NCBI GenBank assembly: GCA_938083135.1
Contig: CALLKY010000097.1
Span: 1 to 64,000 of the forward strand
DNA length: 64,000 bases
Direction: 5' to 3'
Source of the DNA: an uncultured Alphaproteobacteria bacterium
GTDB lineage: Bacteria; Pseudomonadota; Alphaproteobacteria; Bin95
This document shows, in pieces, positions 8,921-11,955 of the stretch (position 1 is the first letter of the stretch; each line of letters begins with the position of its first letter). The translations under genes and the position numbers were made by a program. The notes beneath the pieces were generated by a model. The model worked only from the letters and a program-made list of their open reading frames with translations, had not been told where the DNA came from and ran no database searches.

Positions 8921-10243
8921 CTACTTCCTGATCCGCTTGAGGAACCAGGCCAACATCAGGCGCAAGCCAATGCCGGAGCGGATTTCAAACTCCTCAAAAT
9001 GAAAACGTGAGCGCCGGAGGCCAAGGGCTTGGAAATCCCGTTGCAAGGTTTCCCGCATCGGCTTTGGCCCACAGAATGCTGCAGATATCTCAGGCACTGG
9101 GGCCTCAATGGACTGAGCTATTGTCGCGGCGGTGAGCCGTGGTGCTTTGCCAGATTCAACCAGCACCAGATTGAAACCATCGTTTGCCGCAGCAATCGCT
9201 TCAAGCGTATCCAGATGCGCCGCACTTTCGCGAGATTTGATGCAGTAGAAAAGCCAGACTGGCGGGGCATTGGCTTCAAGCGCTTCTGCCCACGCGACAA
9301 ACGGCGTGACGCCAATGCCAGCAGCAATCCATACTTCCGGCCCGCCGCCAGACTTCCGTTGGAAACGGCCATAGGGGCCAGCGACCTTGGCCTTAATGCC
9401 TGGCTTCAGCGCTGGACCCAACACATCCGTGAAGTCGCCGAGCGGTTTGATGGTGAAACGGATGCGCCTGTCATCTGCAGGCCCTTGGCTAATGGTGAAG
9501 GGATGCGGCTCCGTAAATCCAGGGGCTGCGAATTTTACGAATGCGAACTGTCCAGGCGCTTGCCGCATGCCTCGGCCCGCCGCTGGCGCCAGCGTGACCG
9601 CTAAAGCGTCTCCGGCCCGCCCAACTGTGTCCACGACATAGTTATGGGCGTTGGCAAGGCGGCCTGAAATTAGAAGCGTGTAGAGATATGAAAGTATCCC
9701 GATCACACAGAACGCCAGCACGTAAAGCCCAGCCGGGTCCGTCAATGCGAATGGTTTCAGAATGAACGCAAAATGGAAGGCGGAGGCCGCGTAGAACCCG
9801 CCGATAAACCGGTGGGTCAGGCGCCAAAGGTGATATGGCACAAAGGTCGCGATGGTGATGACCACCAGCGCCAAAATCCCGTACAGGCTGATTTCACCGA
9901 AGGTTTCAGCGACCTCGACCAGCAGGGTCTCAGCGCCAAGGCCATCCATTTCGGCGTCAATCGTATCGTGCAGCAGAATGAATGCGAGCGCGCTAATGCC
10001 GAGCCATTTATGCAGCACATAAATCCGGTCGAGGCCGCCGAAAATCACTTCAAGCACGCGAAAGCGGGTCGCCAAGAGCTGCGATATGGCCATCACAATC
10101 AGCGCTGCAGAGCCAAAATACTGGCTCAACAGCGCGATTGGATCATGCTGGCCTGCCAGTGCTGCAAACCACGGAATAGGCACAGCCAAAGACGCTGCAA
10201 CCAGTAGAAGACCTAATGGCCGCATCGCCATCTTCTGTATCAT
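8921..10243 (-). CDS. Ferric-reductase-like transmembrane flavocytochrome
   Basis: The 440-residue protein joins a membrane domain of about six helices (roughly residues 1-210) to a ferredoxin-NADP-reductase-like domain. Histidines suited to haem ligation occur in VLHKWLG, LLHDTID, THRF and SAFHF. The FAD-binding motif HPFTISQGP (about 255-263) is followed by the NAD(P)-binding GIGVTPFVAWAEAL. Relatives (ferric reductase/NADPH oxidase superfamily) move electrons from NAD(P)H through FAD and haem across the membrane. The acceptor is unknown. The gene ends against ubiX and is preceded on its own strand by the glutaredoxin-DinB gene 24 bp upstream, so the two may form an operon with a redox theme. 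Confidence 0.82.
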   Translation of the reverse strand: MIQKMAMRPLGLLLVAASLAVPIPWFAALAGQHDPIALLSQYFGSAALIVMAISQLLATRFRVLEVIFGGLDRIYVLHKWLGISALAFILLHDTIDAEMDGLGAETLLVEVAETFGEISLYGILALVVITIATFVPYHLWRLTHRFIGGFYAASAFHFAFILKPFALTDPAGLYVLAFCVIGILSYLYTLLISGRLANAHNYVVDTVGRAGDALAVTLAPAAGRGMRQAPGQFAFVKFAAPGFTEPHPFTISQGPADDRRIRFTIKPLGDFTDVLGPALKPGIKAKVAGPYGRFQRKSGGGPEVWIAAGIGVTPFVAWAEALEANAPPVWLFYCIKSRESAAHLDTLEAIAAANDGFNLVLVESGKAPRLTAATIAQSIEAPVPEISAAFCGPKPMRETLQRDFQALGLRRSRFHFEEFEIRSGIGLRLMLAWFLKRIRK

Positions 10244-10267: not shown

Positions 10268-11029
10268 TTATTCGTCCCAGACCTTTAACGGCAGTGGCAG
10301 CTTATCGAAAGCACTTTCTGGCAATGGTTGGTCCGGCTGAACGCCTTCCATCTCCAGCAAGGACATCACCTGGCGGACATGCTGGGTAGAATGCCAGACC
10401 GTGCGCTCCAGCACTTCGTGGGCTTGCTGTTTGCCGTAATAGGTCGCCATTTCGCCCGTGCAGATGTTGGCACCTTCTGATTCTGCCCATGCTTTGAAGT
10501 CCAGCCGCATGGCTTCACCAAAATCGGCAATCTCATCCGGCGTTTGCATATCTTCGGGCGGCGGTGCCACCAATTGCTCGTAAACAAGCGGCTCGCCAGC
10601 GCGACGTGCGCCAAGGAACGCAGTCGGGATCTGGAAGATGTGATGCATCAGCACGCGGTAGCTGCGCGGACGGTTCGGTAGTTCTTTCGCCAAGGCTGAT
10701 TGTGGCATTTGGCGGACATAGCGCGTCGCCGCCTGCCAGATCATGTCGCCACGTGCGGCCAATTCAGCTTGAGTGAGCTTGGGGCCAACGTCTTCGTTGA
10801 TGCCCAGAAACTCCACGACGTCGCGGACATTCTGCGCGAAAACGAACTTATCGCCCTTGGAAACAACAGGAACGGACCGCGCACCAAGCGCCTGCAATGC
10901 AGCCATTCCGTCATCATCATTAGCGACGTCTATCGATTTGAACTCAATCCCACGGATCGAGAGGAATTCTTTAATCCTGAGGCAGCTTGTTCAATGAGGC
11001 TGCCAAAAGACTGAAATTGCTTCAGCCAT
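10268..11029 (-). CDS. Putative selenoprotein: glutaredoxin-like domain (UTSC motif) fused to a DinB domain
   Basis: Translated from the ATG at 11029 with the in-frame TGA at 10991-10993 read as selenocysteine, this gives 253 residues. AGGAGG followed by five bases precedes that ATG, whereas the next in-frame ATG (10906) has no Shine-Dalgarno. Residues 1-75 are a thioredoxin/glutaredoxin fold: VFWQPH-U13-TSCLRIKEFL gives a UxxC active site with Cys16, then a beta strand and the cis-proline motif SVPVV (Pro54). Residues about 85-253 resemble DinB/MDMPI four-helix proteins, with candidate metal histidines at 129/130, 213 and 217 (LMHH, WHSTQH). The stop codon falls exactly where Cys-containing relatives have the first catalytic cysteine, which argues for recoding over decay. 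A thiol-dependent reductase or transferase role is inferred only. It lies upstream of the flavocytochrome gene. Confidence 0.85.
10981..11004 (-). other. Inverted repeat placing the UGA codon in a hairpin loop; possible SECIS region
   Basis: On the minus strand GGCAGC (11004-10999) and GCTGCC (10986-10981) can pair and present the UGA (10993-10991) within a 12-nt loop. Immediately downstream, AGGATT and AATTCCT (10978-10962) can form a second, weaker hairpin whose loop is about 20 nt after the UGA, in the range used by bacterial SECIS elements. Neither is a textbook SECIS; folding and comparison with homologues are needed to choose. Confidence 0.4.
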
Positions 11030-11043
11030 GTGTTCCTCCTGCA

Positions 11044-11097: not shown

Positions 11098-11955
11098 ATG
11101 TCTGAATTGAAACGGAAACTGCTTGCGCGTGAGTTTGTGTCGGCCCCCGGCGTGTTTGACGGGATTTCCGTGCGCACTGCGGATCCAATGGGCTTCGATG
11201 CGCTGTATATGACCGGCTATGGCACGGTCGCATCGCATCTGGGGCTGCCCGATGCAGGGATCGCCAGCTACCGGGATATGGTCGAGCGGGTGAAAGTGTT
11301 TTGCGGTATCGCCAACACGCCGATCATCGCGGATGGCGATACGGGCTATGGTGGATTGATGAACGTTCAGCACACCGTTGAGGGCTATGAGCAGGCAGGG
11401 GCTGCGGGTATCCAGCTAGAGGACCAGGAGTTTCCGAAGAAATGCGGCCACACGCCCATGCGCCGCGTTATTCCGCTTGATGACATGGTGCGGAAGCTCG
11501 AGGTCGCTGTTGCTTCGCGCCGGTCCGATGACTTTTTGATTATTGCGCGCACGGACGCCCGCACGGGCCTTGGGTTGGATGAAGCGATTAAGCGCGGGAA
11601 GGCGTTCAAGGAAGCGGGCGCAGATGTTGTTTTCGTCGAGAGCCCGGAGAGCGAGGCGGAGATGGAGCAGATTTGCGCTGAAATCGATGCGCCCTTGCTC
11701 GTGAACGTGGTGGAAGGCGGCAGCACGCCGGTGCTGTCGGTCGCGGAATACAAGCGCATGGGATACGCCATGGCGATATATCCTGGCTCTGGCTTTCTAG
11801 CCATTGGTGCCGCCCTTCAAACCGTCTACAGCCAGATCCTGGAAACAGGCTCCAGCATCGGTGCGGACACGCCTTTGGCCAATTTCATGGAGTTCTCAAA
11901 ACGCATGGGTTTTGAGGCCGTGTGGGACTTCGAAAAGAAATGGGCGGACGATTAA
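11098..11955 (+). CDS. Isocitrate lyase/PEP mutase superfamily enzyme
   Basis: A 285-residue TIM-barrel protein. The signature loop KKCGH is at residues 114-118 (within EDQEFPKKCGH), the metal-binding segment IIADGDTGYGG around 76-86, IARTDARTG further on, and LLVNVVEGG towards the end. Members cleave or rearrange C-C or C-P bonds of 2-hydroxy or 2-methyl dicarboxylates (isocitrate, methylisocitrate, dimethylmalate) or decarboxylate oxaloacetate. At this length it resembles the dimethylmalate lyase/methylisocitrate lyase group rather than true isocitrate lyase. The start at 11098 is chosen because the upstream in-frame ATG runs back through the divergent gene. It is transcribed away from the glutaredoxin-DinB gene. 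Confidence 0.82.
   Translation: MSELKRKLLAREFVSAPGVFDGISVRTADPMGFDALYMTGYGTVASHLGLPDAGIASYRDMVERVKVFCGIANTPIIADGDTGYGGLMNVQHTVEGYEQAGAAGIQLEDQEFPKKCGHTPMRRVIPLDDMVRKLEVAVASRRSDDFLIIARTDARTGLGLDEAIKRGKAFKEAGADVVFVESPESEAEMEQICAEIDAPLLVNVVEGGSTPVLSVAEYKRMGYAMAIYPGSGFLAIGAALQTVYSQILETGSSIGADTPLANFMEFSKRMGFEAVWDFEKKWADD

Follow-up and report, generated by a model that had tools for sequence, protein, structure and literature searches.

A UGA codon within a conserved reading frame

The window (the whole stretch of 64,000 nucleotides analysed here) holds a 253-codon frame that joins a glutaredoxin (Grx) domain to a DinB domain, and codon 13 of this frame is UGA. The locus therefore raises the question of whether this UGA is read as selenocysteine (Sec), or whether it marks a damaged gene, another amino acid or a regulatory stop. 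Our analysis predicts, with very high confidence, that the gene encodes a true selenoprotein in which UGA specifies Sec, a prediction made from sequence data without any measurement of the protein or of selenium. The features of the frame are as follows.

10268..11029, minus strand: predicted Sec-Grx-DinB gene, 253 aa when the UGA is counted as Sec (42 aligned homologues; dN/dS low in most segments before and after the UGA)
11035..11040 (11040-11035), minus strand: ribosome-binding site AGGAGG, 5 nt upstream of the ATG (read directly)
11029-11027, minus strand: start ATG (read directly)
10993-10991, minus strand: in-frame UGA, predicted Sec13 (codon 13), first position of the UxxC active site (TGA in 30/30 Sec homologues, TGC/TGT in 12/12 Cys homologues)
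10906, minus strand: next in-frame ATG, codon 42 (read directly)
10270-10268, minus strand: terminal stop TAA (read directly)

Read from the ATG at 11029, the frame runs MAEAISVFWQPH-UGA-TSCLRIKEFLSIRGIEF... and ends on the TAA at 10268 after 253 codons, with the one UGA, which lies in the glutaredoxin domain in the context WQPH-U-TSC, as its sole interruption and with no other stop. This bears out the claims of an earlier, sequence-only reading that the start follows a perfect AGGAGG, that the UGA replaces only the first residue of a CxxC pair (giving UxxC), and that the frame stays open to residue 253. The Grx-DinB frame with its in-frame UGA is likewise confirmed at 10268-11029, with the addition that it lies on the minus strand, which that reading had left unstated; the plus-strand reading of the same interval was rejected, as it contains unrelated stops. 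Given the base composition of the gene, about 0.04 stops per codon are expected, and the chance probability of 240 open codons past the UGA is ~6e-5. A GGAG/GAGG-like site is also found upstream of the same ATG in most homologues. Furthermore, another species-level genome of the same genus (G003; L022/L027) carries a 98% identical copy with the same UGA, which rules out an assembly error.

The window gene differs from this copy by 33 synonymous and 4 non-synonymous changes, and the latter all lie at or after codon 43. Most values of dN/dS for other pairs, whichever of the three segments is taken, are well below 0.3; two higher values (0.51 and 0.48) come from short segments with few changes. 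Since dN/dS is low on both sides of the UGA, these results refute a decayed gene, and since the segment before ATG 10906 is also under purifying selection, they argue against translation from that ATG only. According to this last possibility, the UGA would act as a regulatory stop and translation would yield only a 212-aa product (the DinB domain preceded by a shortened Grx part), as might be supposed from the in-frame ATG at codon 42 and from the choice of the 212-aa frame by standard ORF finders. We consider it very improbable, however, because the constrained codons 1-42 hold the invariant W9, U/C13, S15, C16, K20 and S32, while ATG 10906 has no well-placed ribosome-binding site and a product started there would lose the active site, two points on which we agree with the sequence-only reading. 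Gene finders will report a truncated DinB protein without the catalytic domain, which is what happened with the ORF finder here.

Alternation of UGA and cysteine codons among homologues

We aligned 42 full-length genes, comprising the window's own gene and 41 homologues found by searching relatives, the class and GTDB contigs, with duplicates removed. At codon 13, 30 genes have TGA, 8 have TGC and 4 have TGT, and every gene, with UGA or with a Cys codon there, has Cys (TGC/TGT) as its second active-site residue. The alternation of UGA and Cys at this one codon, on which the Sec assignment could be checked, is thus present (30 TGA versus 12 TGC/TGT) and occurs only there; random stops elsewhere, which would have counted against the assignment, are absent from the interior of all 42 genes as delimited. 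The UGA homologues reach down to ~44% identity and are spread across many family groups.

These observations bear on the possibility that a Cys codon has recently mutated to UGA (a pseudogene) or that the UGA is a sequencing error. UGA is one base away from TGC and TGT, and the window comes from an assembly of 163 contigs (4.15 Mb, 99.99% complete, 0.55% contaminated). Nevertheless, the recurrence of the same UGA in 30 homologues of such breadth, together with the low dN/dS downstream of the UGA and the absence of any further internal stop, leaves this explanation extremely improbable. A reading of UGA as an amino acid other than Sec, through Trp or Cys reassignment or suppression, is compatible with a frame that is open under another code, but position 13 in relatives is Cys and never Trp, and many UGA genes also end on TGA, which speaks against UGA having been reassigned generally. 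Because, in addition, sel genes track the UGA and a SECIS-type hairpin is conserved, we assign this reading only a minute chance.

The association with sel genes was assessed in the 41 genomes with a homologue. SelA or tRNA-Sec was detected in 27 of the 28 genomes with a UGA gene versus 3 of the 13 Cys-only genomes (Fisher p = 2.6e-6), where kinship was left uncorrected, which inflates the result; the lone UGA genome without sel genes is 77% complete. Of 398 genomes sampled from the phylum, only two, that of the window among them, gave a match at E <= 1e-20. In one genome (G316), a UGA copy coexists with a Cys copy at a separate locus (contigs C24 and C25), the Cys copy being 39% identical to the query.

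On the best tree, inferred with the active-site and hairpin columns left out, Sec and Cys must have been exchanged at least 4 times, but well-supported branches do not exclude that Sec arose only once. The existence of natural Sec and Cys versions across Alphaproteobacteria makes the benefit of selenium directly comparable.

Selenocysteine machinery of the genome

The presence of selA, selB, selD and tRNA-Sec in the genome was a further check on the assignment, and all four are encoded in the same assembly: one tRNA-Sec (67 bits, above the Rfam cut-off, anticodon UCA), SelA (4e-152), SelB (2.7e-135, directly after selA on contig C138) and SelD (4.1e-86). The SelD match (L018, contig C35) lies within a 761-aa open frame, for which a fusion or a long upstream extension is possible, and the SelD part is well above the TIGR00476 cut-off.

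The genome also carries six genes of the known UGSC selenoprotein family (NF041046; L112-L117, on contigs C146, C4, C152, C4, C3 and C111), each with one in-frame UGA exactly at the U-GSC motif, which points to active use of Sec decoding by this organism. In the gene on C111, 472 codons continue past the UGA, and six members make a large Sec gene family for one alphaproteobacterium. Formate dehydrogenase alpha was considered as a further Sec client, and matches were found, none of them with UGA.

A SECIS-like hairpin downstream of the UGA

The coding sequence following the UGA can form the structure below.

10943..10961, minus strand: SECIS-like hairpin with an 8-bp stem (10961-10954 with 10950-10943) and a GUG loop at 10953-10951 (pairing, compensatory change, synonymous conservation)

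The stem begins about 29-30 nt after the UGA and the GUG loop 38 nt after it. Across 28 distinct UGA sequences, standard pairs occupy 94.2% of the cells, compared with 15-61% in slid versions, and three pairs show compensatory change (CG/GC/UA, UA/GC, UA/CG) in 10 cells versus 2.4 by shuffle. At the codon level, the hairpin has the highest synonymous conservation of the gene in UGA genes (homozygosity of 0.82 versus 0.51 elsewhere), with zero synonymous variation at codons 24-27 (TCG, GTC, CGT and GGG for the majority residues), whereas the 12 Cys genes lack the hairpin and this conservation (0.53 versus a background of 0.52). The structure seems to restrict which residues the protein can have there, with LSVRGI kept in Sec forms where Cys forms are variable. 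Over codons 22-30 (window 10966-10940; L024-L071), Sec forms keep LSVRGIEF-like residues and Cys forms vary, e.g., DANGIDF.

Bacterial SECIS elements have a small apical loop with a G (PMC1088965), and the hairpin fits this feature as well as lying just downstream of the UGA (bSECISearch was not applied). It is the minimum-energy fold in two of the three folding windows of the window gene; in the third, a 63-nt stretch, an alternative fold competes with it. An Rfam scan of the window returned nothing above threshold. When a model of the hairpin was run over the whole genome, only the Sec-Grx-DinB gene was significant, the next match (E 0.05) having no UGA at the right distance. Altogether, we propose that SelB and Sec-tRNA would decode the UGA at codon 13 as Sec, directed by this hairpin immediately downstream within the coding sequence.

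Domain structure of the predicted protein

At its N-terminus the product would have a Grx-fold domain, the redox centre of which is U-T-S-C, and at its C-terminus a DinB/YfiT (S-transferase-like) domain bearing a putative three-His metal site.

10805..11029, minus strand: glutaredoxin (thioredoxin-fold) domain, ~residues 1-75, with U13-xx-C16 and cis-Pro54 (PF00462, model, structure and profile matches)
10289..10772, minus strand: DinB/YfiT four-helix-bundle domain, ~residues 87-247, with invariant H130, H213 and H217 (Foldseek, Pfam, conservation)

For the N-terminal part, Pfam Glutaredoxin (PF00462) matches residues 6-63 at 5.8e-10 (39.7 bits against a cut-off of 22.9). The structure used was an AlphaFold2 model built from five sequences (mean pLDDT 84, pTM 0.75), in which the Grx part has the fold order beta-alpha-beta-alpha-beta-beta-alpha and matches single-domain thioredoxin/glutaredoxin folds (PDB 3zit, TMt 0.84, the TM-score by target length); the family profile finds glutaredoxin 7c10 in the PDB at 5.9e-14. 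A score above the Pfam cut-off, the thioredoxin fold, C/U-xx-C and the cis-Pro are thus all met, and the downstream cis-proline and intact fold inferred by the sequence-only reading find support in the Pfam and structure matches and in the invariance of P54, which, like C16, is shared by all 35 family members compared. Since NrdH/YruB-like profiles score best, electrons could be supplied by either GSH or thioredoxin reductase.

Sequence matches to the C-terminal domain are weaker. DinB_2 (PF12867) covers residues 97-221 at 0.003 in this protein, below the Pfam cut-off, and matches 32 of the 35 members, at best with 1.1e-8; against the PDB, the family profile weakly finds the DinB-like protein 3di5 (0.062). 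The top Foldseek match is PDB 6iz2, the DinB/YfiT protein DR0053 (TMt 0.83). Invariant residues in the 35 members are W9, U/C13, S15, C16, K20, S32, G49, P54 and H130 and, towards the C-terminus, W181, Y197, G199, R209, H213, Q216, H217, R219, Q220 and L244. The four-helix bundle and three invariant His of DinB/YfiT proteins are thus present, with metal binding and the geometry of the triad as predictions only. In YfiT, the three-His site is formed by H67, H160 and H164 (PMC5815605). Judged from the alignment and not from the geometry of the model, H130, H213 and H217 would correspond in kind to that site. Of the proposed fusion of Grx with a DinB domain bearing a metal-binding His triad, the two domains therefore stand, by Pfam and structure, and the triad is invariant, but the metal remains a prediction.

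Genomic neighbourhood and possible function

The gene is flanked by a ferric-reductase/NAD-binding transmembrane oxidoreductase (8921-10243, minus strand) and by a divergent gene of the PEP-mutase/isocitrate-lyase family (11098-11955, plus strand), which stays adjacent within the genus. No general partner emerged from the loci compared: only these two genes recur, the PEP-mutase-like one in 4 loci, all within the genus, and the ferric-reductase-like one in 2. Neighbouring genes vary between lineages, without a conserved operon partner, and offer no pointer to a substrate. Two genomes (G066:C48 and G105:C44; L077, L078) have selA no more than ~10 kb from the Sec-Grx-DinB gene, and in G066 tRNA-Sec is also within that distance, but this does not amount to a conserved operon with sel genes.

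DinB proteins include metal-dependent bacillithiol and mycothiol transferases, and glutathione-using members have been reported (PMC5815605, PMC10950700). The joining of the two domains suggests transfer and reduction on one substrate. In such a mechanism, a divalent metal in the DinB domain would activate a low-molecular-weight thiol, e.g., glutathione, and the domain would attach the activated thiol to, or remove it from, an electrophilic substrate. Sec13/Cys16 would then reduce the resulting mixed disulfide or thioether-type intermediate, and Sec may make this reduction faster and more oxidation-resistant than Cys would. We put forward this coupled transferase-reductase mechanism tentatively, since the metal, the substrate and the activity are all inferred. 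Equally conjectural, although a possibility that we take seriously, is the wider proposal of a new family of selenoproteins, bifunctional enzymes that unite a Sec thiol reductase with a metal-dependent DinB thiol transferase and that, for example, conjugate glutathione to an electrophile and then reductively cleave the conjugate at Sec. If true, selenium would have been recruited into DinB-type detoxification chemistry.

Alternatively, the selenoprotein could be a plain Sec disulfide reductase whose DinB domain is only a scaffold or a metal-storage or sensing module. This would be consistent with the lack of a known substrate or operon partner and with the wide sequence variation of DinB domains (PMC5815605). 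However, H130, H213 and H217, together with W181, Y197, R209, Q216, R219 and Q220, are invariant in Sec and Cys forms, suggesting an active site; we therefore regard a plain reductase as unlikely, though not to be dismissed.

Comparison with known systems

Sec glutaredoxins themselves are an established family, and we found no earlier report of Sec in a DinB-domain protein. The word DinB is absent from a 2026 inventory of 119 prokaryotic selenoprotein families as searched here (PMC13188914), as well as from PMC12013277, PMC9312934 and PMC2398784, and in the literature searched the only paper to mention selenoprotein, glutaredoxin and DinB together is a study of mercury exposure in E. coli. As far as these lists go, Sec-Grx-DinB appears to add a family to the ~119 prokaryotic selenoprotein families or subfamilies catalogued in 2026. 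Marine short reads counted as Grx or Grx-like selenoproteins in 2005 and 2008 could include the Grx part of this family.

Selenoprotein Grx (PF00462, UxxC; e.g., that of Clostridium oremlandii) shares with the window protein the glutaredoxin fold and Sec at the first active-site position. Known Sec glutaredoxins are described as small oxidoreductases (PMC13188914), whereas the window protein adds a DinB domain of ~160 residues and belongs to a different lineage. The UXX-star and HUGP-GUXX-star families (NF041212, NF041211, NF047338, NF045501) also have a Grx-like domain with Sec, and HUGP/GUXX-star is a fusion as well, but they are without a DinB domain and their matches to the window protein cover the Grx part only. 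The protein does not reach the UXX-star cut-offs (30.2 versus 66 bits for NF041212, 24.9 versus 100 and 21.5 versus 97) or that of any other NCBIfam model, and hypothetical protein GOS_C (NF045500) has no match at E<=0.01 in any of the 35 members.

There are also Cys Grx-DinB plasmid proteins (WP_244817409.1, WP_207446294.1, WP_162571355.1), which have the same two domains over their full length at 38-46% identity and differ in having CSSC instead of UTSC, with Cys for Sec. The Cys fusion is already annotated publicly as 'glutaredoxin domain-containing' or 'DinB family protein', and is found on large plasmids of Caballeronia, Variovorax (from linuron-contaminated soil), Roseomonas and Rhizobium. 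The combination of domains, which the sequence-only reading had called unusual, is thus not rare in itself. The plasmid location of the Cys forms hints at catabolism or detoxification, with nothing proven. Finally, the window protein shares the four-helix bundle and three-His site of the DinB/YfiT S-transferase-like superfamily (BstA, mycothiol S-transferase; PMC5815605), the described members of which have neither a glutaredoxin domain nor Sec, whereas the window protein is predicted to have both, with an activity that is inferred.
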